Virus record (IMG/VR): IMGVR_UViG_3300034736_000146
Location: 1 to 22,507 of that record
Source: a virus
Strand: one strand, 5' to 3'
Length of the DNA stretch: 22,507 nt
Below are positions 7,915-19,975 of the stretch, piece after piece. Made by a program: the position numbers and the translations under genes. Positions within the stretch are counted from its first letter, which is position 1, and the number at the start of each line of letters is the position of its first letter. The notes under the pieces are model-generated. The model was given only the letters and a program-made list of their open reading frames with translations, had not been told where the DNA came from and ran no database searches.

Positions 7915-8085
7915 TTAGCTCATCGTATCCTCCGCTTGGTATGTGGTTTCCCACGCATAAGTATCCTCTACAAATTCGTCAAGAGTATACCCTCTTTGCT
8001 TTATCTCTAACAACGTAATATGTTTTACGTCATCAATGAACTCACCTTTAACATGCTTTGGTACAGCATATGCAAATGTCCTCAT
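7915..8085 (-). CDS. Hypothetical 56 aa protein at the end of the amidoligase block
   Basis: A short minus-strand gene encodes 56 residues beginning MRTFAYAVPKHVKGEF and ending with a polar tail, TTYQAEDTMS. I do not recognise it. The middle (DDVKHITLLEIKQRGYTLDEFVEDTY) should be helical. Its ATG overlaps the stop of the cyclotransferase-like gene by four bases (ATGA), with AAAGGA upstream, which supports a real, coupled gene. The 65 bases after it, before the SSB-like start, hold a weak AATAA/TTATT stem and no clear terminator. Confidence 0.7.
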   Translation of the reverse strand: MRTFAYAVPKHVKGEFIDDVKHITLLEIKQRGYTLDEFVEDTYAWETTYQAEDTMS

Positions 8086-8471
8086 AAAAGATCCTTTAGA
8101 TTTACCTTACGGTACTCCACCCAATCACCCGAAGTAACTTCATCATGCCCCTTATACCTTTCATCACGTAAGGTATACATAAGAGCTTGACCGAACTCAG
8201 TCATAACAACTTCTCTTTCATAAAAGTTACGAGAGGTGGGGCCATGATACCCTTCTAGTCTATCTAACCTAGCTAGGGTTTCTTCATTGACACGATAGAC
8301 TTCTACTTTAATAGATGAAGTACCTGTTCCAACACCGGGGAACGCACCAAGAGAGAACATTCTAAACTCTTTTGGTGTTTGAGTTGTCCCTATTAGTTCA
8401 GACTGCGATAGTAACGCATGGTTACCAAAGCCTTTACGCAAGGACCCATACACTGCTACTTTAGTATTCAT
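8082..8471 (-). CDS. Gamma-glutamylcyclotransferase-like (AIG2/GGCT fold) protein
   Basis: This 129-residue protein is of the AIG2/gamma-glutamylcyclotransferase fold, whose members cleave gamma-glutamyl amines by cyclisation to 5-oxoproline. The substrate-binding loop is VAVYGSLRKG (residues 5-14), matching the YGSLRxG signature. The catalytic Glu is E73 in RLDRLEGYHG, followed by YERE at 84-87 as in the family. Length is normal for a single domain. It lies 11 bases after the ATP-grasp gene with an AGGAGA site. The context suggests it cuts or rearranges a glutamyl-amide made by the neighbouring ligases, or reverses the reaction; the true substrate is unknown. Confidence 0.88.
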   Translation of the reverse strand: MNTKVAVYGSLRKGFGNHALLSQSELIGTTQTPKEFRMFSLGAFPGVGTGTSSIKVEVYRVNEETLARLDRLEGYHGPTSRNFYEREVVMTEFGQALMYTLRDERYKGHDEVTSGDWVEYRKVNLKDLL

Positions 8472-8482
8472 ACATTCTCCTG

Positions 8483-9709
8483 TTATTGATTTACTTTTAT
8501 TAAGCTATGAGCTTGAAAGACTAAAGGTAACTGAGTCACACCTACGTGTCCGGGCTTAAGGAATACTGTATATCTGCCCCTTCGATTACAATGCCTGACA
8601 TACAGCTTGTATGGTGGGACTATACCTTGATTGTTTAACCAATAGTGGTAATCATGAATAACATTATCAGTTCCACCTTGATTAATATAATCTTCAATCA
8701 GTGTATTTACATTGTCTTGAAACCTTACCTCAGTCAAATACTCTAAGTCTTCATGGTGTTGCACATTATGGGGAGGTTCTAAACCATCTAAACAATATTG
8801 AAGATCCTGTACTAAACTAAAAGAGTTATTGCTTTCGTCCTCAACTGTGTCTTCTTGTTGATCTTCTTCTTCTATTTCATATAGAGGCTTCTTCCAACTG
8901 TAAGGTAACTCACCTTCTAGCATACGTTTAAATGCAGAAACATAACGAGTGCTAGTGCTATCACCTTCAAGCCCACATGCTGTATTAACTTCCAGTACTG
9001 TAGCTTTCTTCTTACGTTCATTCCAGATAACATCTACTGCACCAAAGTCTAAGTTGATAGCCGACACTGCATTGATTGCTTCTGATATAATACTTTTATC
9101 AGGAGTAAGATCGTTAATAGTATAGATGAACCCGTTATCATGGTTACGTATTTGATAGTTAGAAGGTACGCTTCCATACTGATGTGCTTTACGTTGAACG
9201 TGAATAGCAACACCTTTAGCAACATGAACACGGTACTCATCTCGCTTTCTCATATACTTAGTATAGAGTAAAGCAGTGGGTATTGCTACTGATGGGCTTA
9301 CGTCCTCACTAAATGTTACTAGCTCAAGCCCTTCACCAGAGTGACCTTGTAATACATGGCGGACTACAACGTCATTACCTTCAGCGTACCAACGTTTAGC
9401 TTCTGTCTTTGAGGTGGTCCAGTCGGGTATGCTTACAGGAAGTAAGGTGTCTTGATTTGATTTACTAATCTCTTTAAAGAACTTAAGCTTGTTAGATGCA
9501 ACGCTTACTGCATTTGTTTTATTTATAACATTAACAGAAGGCAGGTGCTTTAAGTCTGAGGTTGAGTTACCCCAATTAATAATGGTTGTATTCTCATTGT
9601 CTCTTAGAGTAGAGTCACTTAGTTTCATTCTCTTACACCTAAGAGTGTTAGCTAATAGTTTAGCTGAACTGCTTCCTACTTTATATGGTAGTACTATTGT
9701 ATTGTTCAT
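8483..9709 (-). CDS. ATP-grasp ligase with extra C-terminal domain
   Basis: This 408-residue protein has an ATP-grasp catalytic core. Such enzymes activate a carboxylate as acyl-phosphate and couple it to an amine. Visible features are INWGNSTS (44-51), the ATP-binding strand/loop VVVRHVLQGHSGEGLELV (114-131), KYMRKRDEYRVHV (151-163), and the metal-binding end DFGAVDVIWN (221-230) plus LEVNTACGLEG (239-249) with E240 and N242. After residue 276 comes an acidic linker (EIEEEDQQEDTVEDE) and a further 115 residues (about 295-408) that I do not recognise. The start overlaps the glutamine amidotransferase stop by four bases. With two other amide-forming enzymes upstream, it probably adds an amino acid or amine to a shared substrate. 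Confidence 0.85.
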   Translation of the reverse strand: MNNTIVLPYKVGSSSAKLLANTLRCKRMKLSDSTLRDNENTTIINWGNSTSDLKHLPSVNVINKTNAVSVASNKLKFFKEISKSNQDTLLPVSIPDWTTSKTEAKRWYAEGNDVVVRHVLQGHSGEGLELVTFSEDVSPSVAIPTALLYTKYMRKRDEYRVHVAKGVAIHVQRKAHQYGSVPSNYQIRNHDNGFIYTINDLTPDKSIISEAINAVSAINLDFGAVDVIWNERKKKATVLEVNTACGLEGDSTSTRYVSAFKRMLEGELPYSWKKPLYEIEEEDQQEDTVEDESNNSFSLVQDLQYCLDGLEPPHNVQHHEDLEYLTEVRFQDNVNTLIEDYINQGGTDNVIHDYHYWLNNQGIVPPYKLYVRHCNRRGRYTVFLKPGHVGVTQLPLVFQAHSLIKVNQ

Positions 9710-10845
9710 TGCACTTGCTCCGTTTTAGTAACTGATACAGCCCATTGGCTGCTAAGTATTTCATTGATTTGATTTTGTTTGTGCTTGTTGTTTACATCTC
9801 CTTCAATTATCTCAAGCAACCATGGTGTATCTACAATTAAAACTTCAGACCCAGCGTTACCTACTAAAGCTTTTACAAACCCTGTGTAATAGCCAGCTAC
9901 TGAGTTGTTAGGCTGATTGAAAGCACGTACTCTTAGTTGCTTACCATCAGTTTGTAAACCCTCTAGTACTCCTGTAATGTTAGAGTCTAAGATGTCAGGC
10001 AATCCCATACTATAGAACTCTACCTCTTCACCTAGTATAAGGTTATGTCTAGCTAGCGGATTAGTATTGCCTTGATATGCAACAGCCTTAGGCGTATTGT
10101 AGTAGGTATTTATTGGACGTTTGTAAGGTTTAACAATTGGCTTTGGTGCAAGCTTTACTTTCTTATCTGTTAAAGTAATGTCACCTTTATCGTTAAACTT
10201 AAAGGTTAGTAAGTGACCAGCGGGTAGCTCGTTGATTGTATACTTAATGTTATTACGTGACAGTATAGCTTCAAGCATGTGACGTTCAGATGCATAGTAG
10301 TACGTATCTTTAAGGTCACTCTTAGCTACCCACAGTGGGCGTTCTTCATTACGTACTAAGTAATACTCACGAGTATGATCGTTCCACCACGATAAAGCAA
10401 AGGCACCTATCAGTTTACTAATTACTTCTTCAGGGTTATCAGCTAATCCCATAGCATAGGCAATGTTCTCGCTGTCAACTTCAAAGTCTTTATGATCTGG
10501 AAGGGTTGTCTGATCAGAAAGAGTACCGTTGTGAGCTAAGGTTACGTTACCGTATGTAAACGGGTGTGCATTGTTATCATCAATAGCACCTTGAGTGGCG
10601 TATCTATTATGGCCAAGCAAGAAGTCACCTGTTACTCTGCTTGATATCTTTTCACCTAACTTTAGCTGAAGGTAATCACTAGCATTAAGCGCCCTCTTGA
10701 ACGTCTCTACTTCACCTTTAATATTATTAGTAGACACCCCGGTACTGTGTGGGCCACGCAATGCGTCTATATATAACAACTGACGAAACACTTTACTGTC
10801 TGTAAAGTTCATAGTTGAACCTACTACTCCTACTAATCCACACAT
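9706..10845 (-). CDS. Class II glutamine amidotransferase (Ntn hydrolase)
   Basis: The first half of this 379-residue protein is a GATase type II domain, which hydrolyses glutamine and releases ammonia for a partner enzyme. Cys2, exposed after Met removal (MCGLVGVVG), is the nucleophile. RGPHSTGV (30-37), GHNRYATQG (78-86, Arg81), AHNGTLSD (104-111, Asn106-Gly107) and DSEN (124-127) match the glutamine-binding residues of GlmS/PurF in order. There is no sugar isomerase or phosphoribosyl domain; residues 240-379 are an unrecognised beta-rich tail. It overlaps the amidoligase gene by 13 bases and the ATP-grasp gene by four. It probably feeds ammonia to, or transfers glutamyl groups with, these enzymes. 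Confidence 0.9.
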   Translation of the reverse strand: MCGLVGVVGSTMNFTDSKVFRQLLYIDALRGPHSTGVSTNNIKGEVETFKRALNASDYLQLKLGEKISSRVTGDFLLGHNRYATQGAIDDNNAHPFTYGNVTLAHNGTLSDQTTLPDHKDFEVDSENIAYAMGLADNPEEVISKLIGAFALSWWNDHTREYYLVRNEERPLWVAKSDLKDTYYYASERHMLEAILSRNNIKYTINELPAGHLLTFKFNDKGDITLTDKKVKLAPKPIVKPYKRPINTYYNTPKAVAYQGNTNPLARHNLILGEEVEFYSMGLPDILDSNITGVLEGLQTDGKQLRVRAFNQPNNSVAGYYTGFVKALVGNAGSEVLIVDTPWLLEIIEGDVNNKHKQNQINEILSSQWAVSVTKTEQVQ

Positions 10846-11750
10846 ATTTTATCCCTTATCTTTTCCAATTGGTTAAAGCCGTTATTAGTTTGTCGTATTG
10901 ATTCAGAAGCTGACCTAAATCTCATATCATATAATAGATCTTCTGCTATAGACACACCTTCATATACTTCTTGAAGGGCACTTGTTGCACTTGATATATT
11001 ACTATTAATTAAATCATCACCTAGTATTTCTCTTAACATAAACATAGGTCCGTGGTTACTTAATACTTTAGGTAGGCCAGTTAGTTTATTACTATCTGAT
11101 ATTGCATACTCCTTAAGTTTAAGTAGATGATTGACCCAGTTGATAAGCCTTGACCTATCAGCTGTCCCCTCATGCCCACGGAACTCTAAAGACCCGAACT
11201 GTGGGACAGATAGTAAGTTAACAGAGGAGTACTTACTCCAGTATCTTTCAGATCTTAAGGCATCTGGACCTAGCCTAGCGATAGCACTTAGCTTTGACAC
11301 TTGATCCTTGCCTCGATACAAAGATAAAGAATATATACCTTCATCTCTTTCTTTACCACACACAGCAAACAAGTAAGGCTCTATCATAGCATACAGTATT
11401 ACGTATTTTATTAGCTCATTCCATGTCATATCTCTCACATCAACATGAACATGCACTGAAGTCCTATGTGAAAACCTAATGTCAGGCATAGCAGATAAGG
11501 TTTCGCATAAGGAATCTAACCTACGAGTTGCACTAAGGCCACCAACAGGTCCTTTAAATACGTACTCTACCCCGTTGTCTCTTAGTGATCCGTCACCTAT
11601 ACATCGCCATCCTTTTATTGGAGCATCTACTGTGATGTTTTCTACCTCTACTTCTATACCTATCTTGGTGGTGTTTATTAGATCACCTAATAAAACCTGA
11701 GGTGTTTGTTGCTCCCTAGTTGCAAACAACGATTGAATTGTGGTATCCAT
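10833..11750 (-). CDS. Amidoligase (COOH-NH2 ligase, glutamine synthetase-like fold)
   Basis: This 305-residue protein matches the putative amidoligase family (PF12224 type), relatives of glutamine synthetase and gamma-glutamylcysteine ligase that form amide bonds with ATP. In numbering that includes three upstream codons, the motifs are IGIEVEVE (33-40; E36, E38), GDGSLRDNGVEYVF (55-68; E65), SVHVHVDVRD (101-110; H103, H105) and YSSVNL...GSLEFRGHEG (177-198; E192, R194), in the expected order. A TTG start at 11757-11759 is possible, but it abuts AGAGGA; the ATG at 11748-11750 lies nine bases from the same site and is preferred. It overlaps the unknown 224 aa gene by 35 bases and the amidotransferase by 13, so all three are coupled. 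Confidence 0.85.
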   Translation of the reverse strand: MDTTIQSLFATREQQTPQVLLGDLINTTKIGIEVEVENITVDAPIKGWRCIGDGSLRDNGVEYVFKGPVGGLSATRRLDSLCETLSAMPDIRFSHRTSVHVHVDVRDMTWNELIKYVILYAMIEPYLFAVCGKERDEGIYSLSLYRGKDQVSKLSAIARLGPDALRSERYWSKYSSVNLLSVPQFGSLEFRGHEGTADRSRLINWVNHLLKLKEYAISDSNKLTGLPKVLSNHGPMFMLREILGDDLINSNISSATSALQEVYEGVSIAEDLLYDMRFRSASESIRQTNNGFNQLEKIRDKICVD

Positions 11751-12390
11751 TTGGGACAATCCTCTTTAGCATTGGCATTAAATGATCGAGACCTTCATGT
11801 ATTTCTACATTAGTTCCATTGACCACACCTACTGGGTTTGATTTGTACATAAGAACAGTGTCATTTAACCCATACATATTTGATATAGCAAAGTCTAATG
11901 ATAAAGCTCTTGCTATCTTTTCACCTGACACTACCATATCTATTGCATCTCCTATGGGTGTGAAGGTATTATCATACAGACTGTTAAGATCTTTATCCGT
12001 AAAGGATCTTCCGTAATTCTTTTCATTCCTCATTATATTACATAGGTCTTCATCATGCACCTGAGAGTTAACACATTGCATCCTTAAGCCTTTCTTCCAC
12101 TGTCTCTTAGCTACCCTCTCTGTATACACAACGTGGTCTCTAACGTTAATCATGCCTAACTTAGGCCAGTTAAAATTTATATTAACACTAGGGTCATCGA
12201 GGTCAAGGGCTACAGTGTCTCCGTTTAACTTAGTAATTTCAATAATGATATTATTGTTGGAGTGGAAGTTTTGTACCAATGCAGGGTACCAGCCATCATC
12301 ATCTCTACTAGAGAACCTTAAGTATGTACCTACGTACGTACTATGGACATCTCTTGCACTCATGTCCTTAAAATGTTTACTTACTGACAT
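11716..12390 (-). CDS. Unknown protein between the two ligases, 224 aa
   Basis: I do not recognise this 224-residue protein by domain. It starts MSVSKHFKDMSARDVHSTYVGTYLRF and has a beta-rich first third (YPALVQNF, NIIIEITKL, DTVALDLDD) that could be an SH3-like barrel. A basic central segment follows (VVYTERVAKRQWKKGLRMQ), then a helical C-terminal half. There is no signal peptide or membrane segment. GAGG seven bases before the ATG supports the start. It sits nine bases after COOH-NH2 ligase type 2 and overlaps the amidoligase start by 35 bases, so it is probably made in step with them. It could be the modified substrate, a carrier or a targeting subunit; this is inference from position only. 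Confidence 0.75.
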   Translation of the reverse strand: MSVSKHFKDMSARDVHSTYVGTYLRFSSRDDDGWYPALVQNFHSNNNIIIEITKLNGDTVALDLDDPSVNINFNWPKLGMINVRDHVVYTERVAKRQWKKGLRMQCVNSQVHDEDLCNIMRNEKNYGRSFTDKDLNSLYDNTFTPIGDAIDMVVSGEKIARALSLDFAISNMYGLNDTVLMYKSNPVGVVNGTNVEIHEGLDHLMPMLKRIVPNGYHNSIVVCN

Positions 12391-12399
12391 TATTTTACC

Positions 12400-13194
12400 T
12401 CATAGTACAGATAAGTTTAGGTTATTGATGACCGAAGTCGCAGACTTGGTATCGCTTTTGTTAATAATCTTACACAAAGTACGTTGATCAACCTCTTCTA
12501 GGTACGAAGGTAGCAAATCTATGTTACGAGTAGCCCATAATGTACGATCATACACCCATTCCATTAGTTCTGTAGACTCTAACCAGAAATTACTAAGGGT
12601 TCTGTACTCTACACCATACATTTTGTGACGCATTGAACCAGCTTTACCGTACAATCTACGTCTTTGTGTGTCACTGTCAAGCATAATAGAAGGAAGGCCT
12701 AAGGTAAAGTCCATCATCTTAATAAGATTACGGTTTACTATTGGGTTAGGTGAGTCGTATCCCACATGAACATGACCACCTGCGGTACGTAGAGTAACCT
12801 TGTCACCTTGGGGTCGTGGCATTTCTCTGTTGGTCCATGCATTAAACTCTGCACTGCAACCAAACTCCATAGCTTCAGGGCCGTAACTCTCTAGCTCTTC
12901 CATAGTATAGTTGTGACTTGGTACTACAACAGTACGTAACCCTTTGTTTTCTAAGATGTTTTTCAACTGAGACATAACTGTTGTCATGTTACTAGTAAAC
13001 TCTAGCTTAGAGTAAGCAGGGTCAATGTTAAACTCAGCAAGGACATTATCTTCTTGCACTGCACCGTTATTTACAGGCCTTGGGTATGACTTGTTACCAC
13101 CTAAGTGCCCGATGACAGACGATATTTTACCAGACATGTCAGCTACAAAGACTTCAGGGTCTGCTCCGACTGTTACGTTTTCCAACTTGGACAT
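12400..13194 (-). CDS. phiEco32-type COOH-NH2 ligase type 2
   Basis: This 264-residue protein matches the phage phiEco32-like COOH-NH2 ligase type 2 family (PF14395 type), a second branch of the glutamine synthetase-like amidoligases. Motifs in order are VGADPEVFV (9-17; E14), VQEDNVLAEFNID (46-58; E48, E54), RTAGGHVHVGY (136-146; H141, H143), the basic TQRRRLYGKAG (176-186), and GVEYRTLSNFW (194-204; E196, R198). These correspond to the metal and ATP ligands of the fold. GGAG lies about seven bases before the ATG. It is flanked by two unrecognised proteins and forms the upstream half of the amide-bond cluster. Substrate unknown. Confidence 0.87.
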   Translation of the reverse strand: MSKLENVTVGADPEVFVADMSGKISSVIGHLGGNKSYPRPVNNGAVQEDNVLAEFNIDPAYSKLEFTSNMTTVMSQLKNILENKGLRTVVVPSHNYTMEELESYGPEAMEFGCSAEFNAWTNREMPRPQGDKVTLRTAGGHVHVGYDSPNPIVNRNLIKMMDFTLGLPSIMLDSDTQRRRLYGKAGSMRHKMYGVEYRTLSNFWLESTELMEWVYDRTLWATRNIDLLPSYLEEVDQRTLCKIINKSDTKSATSVINNLNLSVL

Positions 13195-13206
13195 AATAGC
13201 TCTCCG

Positions 13207-14091
13207 TTATACAGTTAAAAGTTGCATTAGTTTTTCTATATGATCGTCATTTAATCCTTTATCTTCACTTCTCATCCAACCGATACCACTGTGAAGTCTT
13301 GTTGGGTTCTTTAGGATGTCAGTCATCAGTGTACATTGAATGTTACCTCTGGTGTAGGCACCTGATGGTGCTTTACAGAAGAACCTACCTAACGCTTCAG
13401 AGTTATTGACGCTAGCTCTTTTGTAATGCTTAGCGGTTCTGAATGTACTTTGCTTACCGCCATATAGATCTTTATCCCAATCATCACAAAGTAATCTGTT
13501 AAGCATAATCTTAGCACCCTTTATAGTAAATCTTTCAGGGTATATGATAGTGCTTTCTGTTGAACTGTTAGGATTAAATTGTAAATCTTGGGGGTCTTCA
13601 CTGAGGTATCTTTGATAGTCATTGATTGCAAGTGCTGCAACAAAGGATAAGTCTTTATCGTAACCCATATCTACCAGCTTAGTAAAGGTTTGTACTACCC
13701 CTTGCATGAACTGAGGCGCACGTAACAAAAATAAGACAACCATCATTCTATCTGCAGGGATATCAGTTTGTACTTCGAACCCTGCTTTGTAACCTAAGAG
13801 GTTGTTACGTTTCTGAACAAGAGCTGAGCTTATAAAATCAAGAGACATTAGGTAAGTCCACCAGCTATCGCATGTTTCCCAATCAATGTTATCGGGAAGT
13901 ACGATCTCCTCTACTTCTACTTCTTCCTCTCTGTCCCATCTTTTAATTAGGAAAGGTAAGTACTTAATAGAAACAGGGTGTACGTGGTTGCTCATACCTC
14001 TTGTTACGTTGTTAATAGCGGCAAAGCAAGGCTTACCTACATGTTTTACTACCATATAGTTTGAAAGCTTAACATCAAATGCAACACACAT
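13207..14091 (-). CDS. Unknown protein heading the amidoligase block, 294 aa
   Basis: I do not recognise a domain in this 294-residue protein. The N-terminus (MCVAFDVKLSNYMVVKHVGKP) begins Met-Cys, as an Ntn-type enzyme would, but the rest of a GATase signature is missing, so that resemblance is probably accidental. The middle is helical and hydrophobic (PADRMMVVLFLLRAPQFMQG), not clearly membrane-spanning. The C-terminal third has many Lys, Arg and Asn residues, with GYPER-like and GAKIMLNRLLCDDWDKDLYGG segments. GAGGAT before the ATG supports the start. Its ATG overlaps the stop of a 29 aa gene by one base and its stop lies 12 bases before COOH-NH2 ligase type 2. The strict co-location suggests a role in the same pathway. 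Confidence 0.75.
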   Translation of the reverse strand: MCVAFDVKLSNYMVVKHVGKPCFAAINNVTRGMSNHVHPVSIKYLPFLIKRWDREEEVEVEEIVLPDNIDWETCDSWWTYLMSLDFISSALVQKRNNLLGYKAGFEVQTDIPADRMMVVLFLLRAPQFMQGVVQTFTKLVDMGYDKDLSFVAALAINDYQRYLSEDPQDLQFNPNSSTESTIIYPERFTIKGAKIMLNRLLCDDWDKDLYGGKQSTFRTAKHYKRASVNNSEALGRFFCKAPSGAYTRGNIQCTLMTDILKNPTRLHSGIGWMRSEDKGLNDDHIEKLMQLLTV

Positions 14092-14180
14092 TAGTTATCC
14101 TCTTGGTTTAGTTTAATCCATAGCGTTACTAACAACGCTCCGTAAAACAACATCATAATATCAGTCATCCACATCTTCAT
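14091..14180 (-). CDS. Small membrane protein, 29 aa
   Basis: A minus-strand gene of 29 codons encodes MKMWMTDIMMLFYGALLVTLWIKLNQEDN. Residues 7-23 form one hydrophobic helix flanked by Lys, so it is probably a one-pass membrane peptide. Its stop overlaps the ATG of the 294 aa gene (TAATG) and it overlaps the 33 aa gene by 20 bases. AGAGGAT is very close to the first ATG; the ATG at 14172-14174 (two codons later) has better spacing and may be the true start. Function unknown. Confidence 0.55.
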   Translation of the reverse strand: MKMWMTDIMMLFYGALLVTLWIKLNQEDN

Positions 14181-14262
14181 TATCCTCTTGGTTTTCTTCT
14201 TCTAAATCTAAATCCCCATGGTGCCAGTCGGGATCTCCCATTTCTTCCCAAGTCCTACCCAT
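14161..14262 (-). CDS. Acidic small protein, 33 aa
   Basis: A minus-strand gene of 33 codons starts MGRTWEEMGDPDWHHGDL and ends in a run of Glu, Asp and Asn (QEDNEDVDD). Its ATG overlaps the stop of the HTH-like gene by one base (TAATG), which favours reinitiation by the same ribosome. I do not recognise it. Composition suggests a soluble, partly disordered acidic peptide, possibly a partner for a basic protein. Confidence 0.5.
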   Translation of the reverse strand: MGRTWEEMGDPDWHHGDLDLEEENQEDNEDVDD

Positions 14263-14546
14263 TACAGTGCCATCCTTATCCACTTATCTGATAGCCTTTC
14301 AGACTCAGACTCTAACCTTTCAAACACATAAGCATTGGTACGTGATTGCGTACGCTTACGCATCTGATCAATATCCCTGAAGGTATCATTATCTACAGTC
14401 CCTTTGTTACTGCGGACTATGCGGCCCCATAGGGTAGCTGTCTTGATACCTGTGATGATTGACAGTTGCGGTATGGTATACTCTGCTCCGTGAAGGAGCC
14501 TAGGGTGACTTGATTCGTTTACATATTCTATTGGTTTTCTGGCCAT
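14262..14546 (-). CDS. HTH-like DNA-binding protein, 94 aa
   Basis: This 94-residue basic protein has a plausible helix-turn-helix at about 23-48: YTIPQLSIITGIKTATLWGR. The pattern T-x-x-x-L-x-x-x-T-G-I-x-x-x-T-x-x-x-R is typical of small phage regulators. The C-terminal half is helical and charged (MRKRTQSRTNAYVFERLESESERL). GGAG lies nine bases before the ATG. It is the first gene after a strong terminator and before the amidoligase block, so control of that block is a reasonable guess. It could instead bind the degenerate repeats of the divergent hub. Confidence 0.6.
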   Translation of the reverse strand: MARKPIEYVNESSHPRLLHGAEYTIPQLSIITGIKTATLWGRIVRSNKGTVDNDTFRDIDQMRKRTQSRTNAYVFERLESESERLSDKWIRMAL

Positions 14547-17767: not shown

Positions 17768-19975
17768 ATGAGAGACCCGCAAGGCTACATGGAAGAAGTT
17801 ACGGATGATGAGCTTCACAATATAATTAACTCAGAGGTTGCTAATTCACAGGGTAATTTCCTTGACTCTTCTGATCTTTCTAATGAAAGAGAGAAAGCTA
17901 CCTATGAGTACGCAATGCAGCCTATAGGCCACTTAGCGCCTCAAGGTGTGTCTAAGATTGTATCCTCAGATACTGTTGAAGCTATCGAGGGGTACTCTGC
18001 AGTTCTCTCTGAATTGTTATTAAATAATAAAAAATTAGCAAGGTTCATACCGTACAGCCAAACGGCTTCGGGTGTACATGCTGCACGAGTTGCATCTGAT
18101 GTTGTTAACTACTGTATCTTTAAAAAGAACAAAGGTTGGGAGATCATTAACTCGTGGATTAAAGCAGCTCTTCTGTGGAAGAACGCTGCAGTAGTATGGG
18201 AATACGTTGAAGACTTTACATACAGCTTTGAAGAGTATGAAGAGATTAGCCCTGAAGCCCTTGACATGCTGCTTGCAGATCCAGAAGTAGAAGTAGTAGG
18301 TGACCTTTACTCTAATGAGGGTGGCATCTATGAAGATGTACGTGTTAAGCGTACTAAGAATAAGAGTGGTATTAAGATTAGGAACATTGAGCCTGAGTCT
18401 TTCATTATCAGCCAAGGGGCTTCTTCTATTGAAGATGCATCTTTTGTTGGTATTAGAACTGAGATGACACGTTCTGAGATCCGTAAACAGTACCCAGACC
18501 AAGCCGGAAGTATTGATTGGGAGTCCACTGATGACTCTTACTCTTTCCAGCAAGCTATTAATAACGAGAAGACTGCTCGAAGAACTTCTGTTGGATTATC
18601 TAATGTATCCTTTAGCACCAACCAAACCTCAGAGGCTAACCAAGTAACTAGTGTTTTAGAATGCTGGCTACAGGTTGATCGTGATGGTGATGGTATTGCA
18701 GAGCTAAAAAGATTCATTACTGTAGGTAACCACATCCTGTTTGAAGAAGATGTTGATTCTGTTCAGATTGCAGAGCTAAAGCCTTTTGACATCCCACATG
18801 AGTGGGCTGGTCTATCTATGGCTGATATGACTCGTCCCTCTACTATGGCATCTACTGCTATCCTTCGTGGGTTTGTTGAGAACACTTACTTGACTAACTA
18901 CTCACCTAAGCTAGCTGATCCCAATGTAGTTGACTTCTCTGCTTTACAAAATATAAAGCCTAAGCAAATTGTACCTACCAACGGAAACCCTTCAGGAGCT
19001 GTGCAAAACATGCCCCCTGAAGCTTTATCCTCTGGTACTGTACCTTTACTGGAGTTCTTACAACGTCATAAGGAACAGGCTAACGGATTATCTAAGGCAG
19101 CACAAGGCCTTAACGATACCCTTTATGTGTCAGGAAACTCTGAACAAAAGGTATCTGCTGTACAATCTGCAGCACAAACACGCATCCAACATATCGCAAG
19201 AAGATTTATGGAGACTGGCTTAGCTCGTCTATGTGAAGGTGTGTATGAAACGATGAAGAAAGAGATGCGTACGCAAGAGATGAGCTATTATGATCGCAAT
19301 GATTTCTACTCAACAATCAATATTAAGGAACTCCCTGACAATATGATGTTGCAAGTAGAAGCCGATGTGGGCGATGCAAGTAATAGTTCTATACTAAACA
19401 AGATGCAAATGATTGGCTCGCAAGTACTCCCCAGCTTAATGCAAGCTGGATTCCAAGGCGTAGTCAATCCGTTAGCTCCGGCTATCATTGCATCTAAAAC
19501 CATTGAGGCTTTAGGCGAAGACCCGTTAGACTACATAGTAGACTACACTTCCGAAGAGTATAAAAAGTCCGCAATGGATGGCAAACAAAAAGAGTCTAAA
19601 GCAAATGAGATTAAGAAAGCTATGGAAGAGCAGTCTGTCAAAACAAAGATGGCTCTCGACCAAGCAAATGTCGATTACACAAATGTGCAGTCTCAGAATG
19701 CAATTCAAGATAACTTGAAACAACTCGTTGTTGCCTTGGATAAATCATATCAAGAGTGGGCTAAACTAGATATCTCTGCAGCTAAGGAGGGTACAACCCC
19801 TGCTGAGCAACCAAACGTACAAGAGATGTACGCCTTGGCGCAAGAACTTATTAGTAAGACAATGACTCAACCAAAATCTAACGGGAACCAAGAACAACCT
19901 CAGCAAGGTCAACCTCGACAAGAGGAGTTAACACCTGAGGCTATTCAAAGTTTCCTTCAGCAAGGTGGTATGTAA
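17768..19975 (+). CDS. Portal protein
   Basis: This 735-residue protein is the probable portal, the dodecameric ring at one capsid vertex through which DNA is packaged and on which the tail assembles. Position directly after terL and before scaffold and capsid, length, and the pattern of the N-terminal half (LSELLLNNKKLARFIPYS, WIKAALLWKNAAVVWEYVED, KIRNIEPESFIIS) match portals of P22-like/phiEco32-like podophages. Residues about 440-500 (QEANGLSKAAQGL...SAAQTRIQHIARRF) are the long helical stem and crown region typical of portals. The C-terminal 50 residues are Gln/Pro-rich and probably flexible. GAGGAAA eight bases before the ATG supports the start. Assignment is by context and pattern. Confidence 0.9.
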   Translation: MRDPQGYMEEVTDDELHNIINSEVANSQGNFLDSSDLSNEREKATYEYAMQPIGHLAPQGVSKIVSSDTVEAIEGYSAVLSELLLNNKKLARFIPYSQTASGVHAARVASDVVNYCIFKKNKGWEIINSWIKAALLWKNAAVVWEYVEDFTYSFEEYEEISPEALDMLLADPEVEVVGDLYSNEGGIYEDVRVKRTKNKSGIKIRNIEPESFIISQGASSIEDASFVGIRTEMTRSEIRKQYPDQAGSIDWESTDDSYSFQQAINNEKTARRTSVGLSNVSFSTNQTSEANQVTSVLECWLQVDRDGDGIAELKRFITVGNHILFEEDVDSVQIAELKPFDIPHEWAGLSMADMTRPSTMASTAILRGFVENTYLTNYSPKLADPNVVDFSALQNIKPKQIVPTNGNPSGAVQNMPPEALSSGTVPLLEFLQRHKEQANGLSKAAQGLNDTLYVSGNSEQKVSAVQSAAQTRIQHIARRFMETGLARLCEGVYETMKKEMRTQEMSYYDRNDFYSTINIKELPDNMMLQVEADVGDASNSSILNKMQMIGSQVLPSLMQAGFQGVVNPLAPAIIASKTIEALGEDPLDYIVDYTSEEYKKSAMDGKQKESKANEIKKAMEEQSVKTKMALDQANVDYTNVQSQNAIQDNLKQLVVALDKSYQEWAKLDISAAKEGTTPAEQPNVQEMYALAQELISKTMTQPKSNGNQEQPQQGQPRQEELTPEAIQSFLQQGGM

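Follow-up and report, generated by a model that had tools for sequence, protein, structure and literature searches.

Described amide-bond systems

An amide-bond cassette is carried by the phages LUZ24, phiEco32, RIO-1, PA11 and CW02 and was reportedly described by Iyer et al. 2009 and Hardies et al. 2013. In butirosin, the ATP-grasp ligase BtrJ attaches a protecting gamma-glutamyl group, which the GGCT-family enzyme BtrG takes off. The PuuA/PuuD putrescine pathway likewise has a GS-fold gamma-glutamyl ligase and a C26 gamma-glutamyl hydrolase. In peptidoglycan amidation, the ligase and the glutaminase of MurT/GatD produce a carboxamide (PMC3267633), as the enzymes described here may do. The phage gene set has been published as the "peptidoglycan modification cassette", a name that expresses a hypothesis (PMC5498523); this hypothesis is cited in PMC10580990.

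Gene content of the run

The window, by which we mean the whole 22,507-nt stretch of marine phage DNA that was analysed (IMG/VR record IMGVR_UViG_3300034736_000146, positions 1-22,507), contains eight ORFs on the minus strand in a run that is unbroken from 14091 to 7915, with intergenic gaps of -44 to +12 nt. A plausible purine-rich Shine-Dalgarno sequence is found directly 5' of seven of the eight genes. The run encodes two GS-like ligases, an ATP-grasp similar to RimK, a class II GATase and a GGCT, together with two unnamed proteins and a 56-aa protein, all listed here from the first gene to the last:

13207..14091, minus strand: 294-aa core protein with which the run opens; no Pfam family
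12400..13194, minus strand: GS/GCS-like ligase, phiEco32 COOH.NH2 ligase type 2; PF14395 above cut-off, PHROG 3815 at 2e-90
11716..12390, minus strand: 224-aa core protein (PHROG 11055), no Pfam family; 44-nt overlap with the downstream Amidoligase_2 gene
10833..11759, minus strand: GS/GCS-like ligase, Amidoligase_2; PF12224 above cut-off, PHROG 7469 at 3e-55
9706..10845, minus strand: class II glutamine amidotransferase (Ntn Cys2); PF13522 at 5e-17, PHROG 4736 at 8e-80
8483..9709, minus strand: ATP-grasp ligase, RimK/MptN-like; PHROG 2599 at 3e-73, under the Pfam cut-offs
8082..8471, minus strand: gamma-glutamylcyclotransferase (GGCT/YtfP/AIG2-like); PF06094 at 9e-22, PHROG 2520
7915..8085, minus strand: 56-aa protein that closes the run; 4-nt overlap with the GGCT gene

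The original prediction of a leftward coupled block with these enzyme families is borne out by the ORF layout and by the Pfam and PHROG matches. The block had been drawn up to 14262, but the coupled run stops at 14091, and 170 nt without any gene of at least 50 aa lie between this point and a 94-aa gene at 14262-14546. Three small proteins had been claimed, of which only the 56-aa one (7915-8085) is inside these coordinates; its HMM matches are confined to the near relatives forming the window's own clade, and this distribution marks it as a non-core component.

The cluster is another copy of the known podophage amide-bond cassette, not a new one. Its gene order is that of LUZ24 gp15-gp22 and of phiEco32 gp87-gp77, with the conserved succession 294-type, COOH.NH2 ligase, 224-type, Amidoligase_2, GATase, ATP-grasp and GGCT, and the matches by which cassette members are recognised (PF14395 with PF12224, PHROG 2599 with PHROG 4736, and GGCT) are all present. 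The same seven families make up the cassette of LUZ24, phiEco32, RIO-1, PA11 and CW02, although in PA11, CW02 and RIO-1 the genes are reshuffled relative to the LUZ24/phiEco32 order. Compared with LUZ24/phiEco32-type cassettes, the COOH.NH2 ligase of the window is mostly 30-45% identical, the GATase is shorter at 379 aa (LUZ24 510, phiEco32 676), the members follow one another without inserted genes and the 56-aa last gene is private. To call the cluster little-known was too strong, as the cassette is already described (PMC5498523).

With respect to PuuA/PuuD, the window has GGCT in place of C26, no intervening oxidase or dehydrogenase, and GS-like enzymes from other families; the C26 of cassette relatives is closest to the PuuD-type group. 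Unlike butirosin, it has no acyl-carrier protein or aminoglycoside genes, and it contains two GS-like ligases plus a GATase in addition. Pfam and PHROG matches revealed no oxidase, dehydrogenase or carrier protein of the Puu or butirosin type among the eight genes. MurT/GatD, in turn, combines a Mur ligase with a class I GATase, whereas the window combines GS-like ligases with a class II GATase.

Distribution and co-conservation

Independent tblastn searches with four cassette proteins returned 312, 320, 310 and 332 phage records, in near-identical sets (Pseudomonas 119-121, Escherichia 92-93, Vibrio 22, Proteus 8, Salmonella 7). The cassette is present in about 310-330 sequenced phage genomes, and its carriers, which number in the hundreds, are phages of E. 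coli, of Pseudomonas, of Vibrio and of marine bacteria. When the block was compared with phages at the DNA level, only short GATase matches resulted, and single-sequence scans with the 294-aa and Amidoligase_2 proteins recovered close copies only. The comparison covered 117 distinct loci with at least 6 kb on either side: both ligases, the GATase and the ATP-grasp occur together, on one strand, in all 117, and the lack of co-conservation that would have spoken against a common pathway was not observed.

In the case of the Planctomycetes strain ZRK32 phage, such genes have been claimed to be auxiliary metabolic genes that were taken from bacteria and improve the nitrogen and amino-acid metabolism of the host, and growth promotion by this phage is published (PMC10945688). 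However, the growth assays did not isolate the effect of the cassette genes (PMC10945688), the ZRK32 phage record is a standard cassette in LUZ24 order, and no homologous chromosomal cluster was found: a pattern-based scan across 84,980 genomes of bacteria and archaea, which is most sensitive to close relatives, gave the ligase in nine contigs only, all from metagenome-assembled genomes, at least six of which contigs carry further cassette genes. This explanation is very improbable, and our analysis argues against a host-derived nitrogen-metabolism reading of the cassette, which has the look of a lytic-podophage module confined to phages rather than of a recent host gene set.

Another proposal is DNA modification, the ligases adding glutamyl or amide groups to a modified base; in its favour, the cassette adjoins replication genes in most families. 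Yet the loci read show no base-modifying enzyme linked to the block, nucleotide genes vary widely among cassette phages, and GGCT and C26 are not known to play a role in DNA hypermodification. We consider this proposal barely credible.

A portal search returned 291 records, from a phage set similar to that of the cassette. The cassette is missing in Roseobacter phage CRP-7, which has the most similar portal (50%), and in Sulfitobacter phage pCB2047-C. The cassette is therefore not obligatory for this type of virion, and a virion-linked function was rejected.

Ligases and amidotransferase

Both GS-like ligases score above the curated Pfam cut-offs (COOH-NH2_lig, PF14395, 40.8 bits vs. 25; Amidoligase_2, PF12224, 27.4 bits vs. 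22), and a PDB sequence search gave no match for either. Residues D12, E14, H141, H143, R178, E196 and R198 of the COOH.NH2 ligase are 99-100% conserved in 194 relatives, as are E36, E38, H103, H105, E192 and R194 of Amidoligase_2 in 191; the called start of the latter gene is TTG, with an in-frame ATG at 11750. The GATase (GATase_6, 62.7 bits vs. a curated Pfam cut-off of 27) has R81, H94, N106-G107 and D124 intact, and its glutaminase domain resembles that of GlmS/PurF/AsnB, with no synthase domain recognised. The claim that each recognised enzyme has an intact active site is thus confirmed, the catalytic positions being near-invariant across up to 194 relatives; loss of catalytic residues in relatives was looked for and was not seen.

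The family profile of the ATP-grasp matched alpha-L-glutamate ligase and RimK structures (3e-7 to 3e-6), and the NCBIfam matches were MptN (6e-9) and RimK (1e-6), which place the enzyme on the alpha-L-glutamate ligase side of the superfamily. Its C-terminal extension (about residues 265-408) is highly variable among relatives.

The closest characterised ATP-grasps being RimK, which glutamylates ribosomal protein S6, and phage R2K-type ATP-grasps having been proposed as protein taggers (PMC4431377), the ATP-grasp and the GS-like ligases might put glutamate or short peptides on a host or phage protein, with GGCT or C26 trimming or editing the tag. The R2K assignment, however, is under the curated Pfam cut-off (R2K_2, 17.0 bits vs. 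26.2), and weak R2K matches occur in 7 of 14 family members, with RimK and D-Ala-D-Ala ligase models matching equally many. Moreover, GGCT and C26 usually work on small molecules and no target candidate was found, so that protein tagging appears doubtful. A ribosomal precursor peptide was rejected as unlikely, because the module has no small ORF conserved throughout and the block has no universal small peptide gene.

The two proteins without a Pfam family

The 224-aa protein, encoded between the two ligases, was found in 111 of the 117 loci and adjoins both ligases without break in 108; judged from this conservation, it is a core part of the cassette. Its AF2 model (pLDDT 92) predicts an N-terminal SH3/Tudor/Sm-like small barrel and a C-terminal part, and fold searches gave weak matches to Tudor/Sm-like barrels only (Z ≤6, best Foldseek E 6e-3), with the other parts of the fold barely covered. 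It is probably a non-catalytic subunit that keeps both GS-like ligases together.

The 294-aa protein, matched by HMM in 88 of the 117 loci, is also a core part, with Cys22 and Arg124 invariant. Its AF2 model is confident (pLDDT 88, pTM 0.88) and found no match in the PDB (Z ≤2.2, other fold parts barely covered). Those structural relatives above noise in BFVD that are named all belong to cassette-bearing phages, and the ORF 5' of C26 in Zobellviridae is of the same family (hhalign prob 97.5, E 8e-12). The protein may be either an acyl-group acceptor or carrier, or a cysteine enzyme. The two larger unrecognised proteins that had been noted in the block are therefore present, lack a Pfam family and are core; termed "hypothetical" in annotation pipelines, they can now be named as cassette parts.

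Proposed gamma-glutamyl removal and pathway

The GGCT of the window (GGACT/GGCT, 78.3 bits vs. a curated Pfam cut-off of 22.8) has YtfP as its closest solved structure (1xhs, 3e-15) and retains the catalytic Glu73, which is 100% conserved in 79 relatives. In the peptidase C26 of cassette relatives, C82/H183/E185 are 99-100% conserved (139 relatives), and the nearest models are gamma-Glu-GABA hydrolase and gamma-Glu-CDP-amidate hydrolase. GGCT or C26 lies inside the flanks in 113 of the 117 loci and, since in two of the four exceptions (phage 7-11 and vB_CsaP_009) GGCT is found beyond the fetched flank, at least 115 loci have one or the other; neither was present in the stretches read of three phages without the full cassette. 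The first 44 loci (none with neither, two with both) had suggested strict mutual exclusion, which was replaced by "at least one" because 25 loci of the wider sample of 117 have both. Among Pseudomonas isolates there are 103 GGCT and 16 C26 records as compared to about 121 cassette phages, and among the 22 Vibrio cassette phages GGCT is found in 4 and C26 in 15.

Part of the complementarity of the two enzymes is phylogenetic in origin: it gave a Fisher p of 1e-8 with relatedness ignored, and the tree-based independence test had only five independent contrasts on supported branches, mostly uninformative. On the tree, GGCT was gained or lost 14 times in the 85 loci that bear C26 and twice in the 32 that lack it, a pattern that fits an interchange but falls short of proof. 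From gene content, GGCT and the gamma-glutamyl hydrolase C26 are interchangeable in the cassette, with too few independent swaps on the tree for statistical proof, and the pair is available for a swap experiment.

The chemistry of the cassette points to glutamate, because the ATP-grasp resembles RimK/MptN, C26 resembles gamma-Glu-GABA and gamma-Glu-CDP-amidate hydrolases, and GGCT resembles YtfP. Co-conservation, intact active sites and nearest-family matches lend support to the original prediction of a complete pathway centred on glutamate or glutamine amides. We give about an even chance to this copy running a cytosolic, glutamate-centred amide assembly line with a required gamma-glutamyl-removal step. 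One GS/GCS-like ligase would attach a gamma-glutamyl group, or alternatively an amino acid, to the amine of a substrate, and the RimK-like ATP-grasp would add a further residue, probably glutamyl; the class II GATase would supply ammonia from glutamine to the other GS-like ligase, yielding a carboxamide. The assignment of the ligases and the order of the steps are guesses. In a final or proof-reading step the gamma-glutamyl group would be removed, by GGCT through cyclisation to 5-oxoproline in some phages and by C26 through hydrolysis to glutamate in others. The question is reduced to testable chemistry, in which a gamma-glutamyl group goes on and must come off. More tentatively, and with a rather low probability, the seven components, two of them from uncatalogued protein families, could form a machine making a phage-specific gamma-glutamyl-protected amide, in which the barrel subunit bridges the ligases and the invariant Cys of the 294-aa protein carries or receives the chain.

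The substrates of the removal enzymes also bear on a cell-envelope target, proposed in PMC5498523 and cited in PMC10580990, according to which peptidoglycan precursors would be modified with unusual peptide-stem amides, excluding other phages from the infected cell. GS-like, ATP-grasp and GATase enzymes of such kinds act on peptidoglycan elsewhere, and the named hosts of full-cassette phages in the tblastn records are mostly Gram-negative. Against this, GGCT and C26 normally use L-gamma-glutamyl compounds while the peptide stem has D-Glu, a wall modification would come late for a lytic phage, the sequence holds no pointer to the wall and our literature search found no experiment. A cell-envelope target is possible but rather unlikely. 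It names a target, and could coincide with the glutamate-centred pathway.

Organization of the gene block and its known relatives

The linear 22.5-kb virus record belongs to a short-tailed phage, whose leftward genes encode a 5'-3' exonuclease, a family A DNA polymerase, ribonucleotide reductase, thioredoxin-like and gp2.5-like single-strand-binding proteins, and whose rightward genes encode terminase, portal and scaffold. The block lies between these replication-type genes and the terminase/portal/scaffold genes, and consists of eight genes with intergenic gaps of -44 to +12 nt:

14091-7915, leftward: eight-gene block
14091-13207, leftward: 294-aa protein
12390-11716, leftward: 224-aa protein
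8471-8082, leftward: gamma-glutamylcyclotransferase (GGCT)

A purine-rich Shine-Dalgarno-like stretch was found upstream of seven of the eight genes; promoter- and terminator-like matches around the block were no more frequent than in shuffled sequence. GGCT, the class II glutamine amidotransferase (GATase) and the two glutamine synthetase-like ligases, Amidoligase_2 and COOH.NH2 ligase, scored over the curated Pfam cut-offs and were also found by PHROGs 2520, 4736, 7469 and 3815, while the ATP-grasp enzyme was recognised via PHROG 2599 (3e-73). At the left end of the window, the product of 117-644 belongs to a family labelled 'NAD synthetase' by PHROG and GenBank (cf. MK613349.1, CRP-7 gp22); it also matches homing endonuclease families, and the label looks wrong.

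Families and order are identical in LUZ24 (gp15 to gp22) and phiEco32 (gp87 to gp77), and the families recur, partly reshuffled, in PA11, CW02, CVT22, RIO-1, phage 7-11, LAh_6 and others. Separate tblastn searches with four block proteins retrieved 312, 320, 310 and 332 of 50,697 records, with nearly identical phage sets. The block is therefore a further copy of a known cassette, described in 2017 as a seven-gene 'peptidoglycan modification cassette', with superinfection prevention as a hypothesis, and conserved in RIO-1, phiEco32, 7-11, PA11, tf, LUZ24, PaP3 and CW02 (PMC5498523). In the literature on the cassette, we found no experiment on its product or target. The present analysis adds the complete core list, an interchangeable gamma-glutamyl-removing enzyme and two unnamed core families.

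Core content and active sites

Cassette loci were collected from viral contigs and named phages by distinct COOH.NH2 ligases, with 6 kb or more of flanking sequence on either side (117 loci). Since only similarity to this ligase governed the choice, selection does not account for the other genes being present. Both ligases, GATase and ATP-grasp occur together in 117/117 loci. The 224-type protein is present in 111 loci, the six lacking it being a rearranged group, and these five genes always share one strand. The original observation of an amide-bond gene block is confirmed; across the loci, COOH.NH2 ligase, 224-type and Amidoligase_2 genes are contiguous in 108.

Rearranged cassettes (L055, L067, L070, L239, L260, L315, L297) have, for example, the order COOH.NH2 ligase, ATP-grasp, GGCT, GATase, Amidoligase_2, and some carry two GATase genes; the 224-type protein was looked for in these seven and not found. 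In five other loci (L060, L072, L078, L081, L134) the ATP-grasp gene is present twice, at its usual position and again upstream of GATase.

Catalytic positions proved near-invariant among up to 194 relatives compared per protein: in the two ligases the Glu-x-Glu, His-x-His and Glu-x-Arg residues, Arg81/His94/Asn106-Gly107/Asp124 of GATase and Glu73 of GGCT. GATase in the window has Cys at position 2; across automatic ORF calls the N-terminus aligns poorly, and the Cys motif lies near the start in 245/313. The GATase ORFs of four loci (L107, L128, L172, L283) read ICGIVG or ICGLVG, and no ATG immediately precedes the catalytic Cys, which suggests ATT, ATC or ATA start codons.

Probable removal of a gamma-glutamyl group

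Many relatives without GGCT encode a 200-215-aa Pfam Peptidase_C26 protein, well above cut-off, whose Cys-His-Glu is conserved in 99-100% of 139 sequences. Among the 117 loci, 28 have GGCT only, 60 C26 only, 25 both and 4 neither; in two of these four, phage 7-11 and Cronobacter phage vB_CsaP_009, GGCT is present outside the fetched flank, and in L190 and L297 neither enzyme was found. Among isolates, the two enzymes divide by host: for Pseudomonas phages there are 103 records with GGCT and 16 with C26, compared with about 121 for the cassette; for Vibrio phages the figures are 4 and 15, compared with 22; and all three Klebsiella phages had C26. Fisher's test for the two occurrences gave 1e-8 with loci taken regardless of common descent; the tree of loci offers few supported contrasts for GGCT/C26 independence. 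GGCT changed 14 times among 85 C26-bearing loci versus twice among 32 loci without C26.

GGCT frees 5-oxoproline and C26 frees glutamate, both from gamma-glutamyl amines, and their common denominator is therefore gamma-glutamyl removal. That the cassette includes such a step, carried out by GGCT or C26, is the best-supported functional reading, short of proof.

The ATP-grasp profile hits alpha-L-glutamate ligase/RimK structures, at 3e-7 to 3e-6, ahead of D-Ala-D-Ala ligases and also matches the NCBIfam MptN and RimK models. For the C26 relatives, the closest models are those of gamma-Glu-GABA and gamma-Glu-CDP-amidate hydrolases, all far under curated cut-offs, and their nearest structures have the class I amidotransferase fold. 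Judging from sequence, each recognised enzyme of readable specificity, GATase included, would handle glutamate or glutamine. In PuuA/PuuD and BtrJ/BtrG, gamma-glutamyl serves as a temporary group; by analogy, a similar use here would be the most economical mechanism.

The 294-aa and 224-aa proteins

The 294-aa protein matches PHROG 38092 weakly. Its predicted structure (pLDDT 88, pTM 0.88) had no match in the PDB, and the named entries among its better BFVD matches come from the cassette phages CVT22, GAP52, CW02, 4_4572, 3H10_20, LAh_6, LAh_8 and RIO-1. In Zobellviridae, the gene immediately upstream of C26 yields a profile that hhalign matches to the 294-aa protein (probability 97.5, E 8e-12), and the alignment pairs Cys22 with Cys41 and Arg124 with Arg151. 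Combined HMMs place the family in 88/117 loci, and some of the others have a C-[FY]-G protein at the same place. In phiEco32-like and 7-11-like phages (phiEco32 gp87/gp88; L181, L184, L187, L213, L185, L189) two adjoining proteins carry an early C-[FY]-G motif and appear to be its paralogues.

The 224-aa protein hits PHROG 11055, a family of unknown function; its model (pLDDT 92) begins with a small barrel, for which all fold matches, of Tudor/Sm/biotin-ligase type, were weak. Because its gene sits between those of the two ligases, and its ORF overlaps that of Amidoligase_2 in 97/111 loci, we infer that it may be a non-catalytic bridge of both.

Apparent phage restriction and absence of the cassette

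When 84,980 genomes of bacteria and archaea were scanned for the ligase, 9 contigs were found, all from metagenome-assembled genomes and at least 6 with other cassette genes, so that, as far as the scan reaches, the cassette appears phage-restricted. Phage-ZRK32 (OP650935.1, 21.9 kb), presented as a chronic phage of Planctomycetes that carries nitrogen-metabolism AMGs, has been claimed to have acquired these genes from Pseudomonas (PMC10945688). It contains an ordinary LUZ24/tf-type cassette in LUZ24 order, which, together with the phage restriction, argues against this acquisition; the published interpretation as host-derived AMGs seems doubtful.

The portal most similar to that of the window (17768-19975, rightward) is from Roseobacter phage CRP-7 (50% identity), which has no cassette; related virion genes thus occur with and without it. 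In OM43 phage MEP401 (OP830906.1, 1063-3569) the cassette is reduced to a diverged Amidoligase_2-like protein of 548 aa and a diverged GATase-like protein of 289 aa; COOH.NH2 ligase, ATP-grasp, GGCT and C26 are missing. Because CRP-7 has none and MEP401 only these two diverged proteins, phages can lack the cassette or lose it. The 349-kb record of Vibrio phage V07 (MT135025.1) contains an apparent VPp1-type cassette at 300943-306560, with C26 and ATP-grasp seen, and is possibly a chimeric or contaminated assembly.
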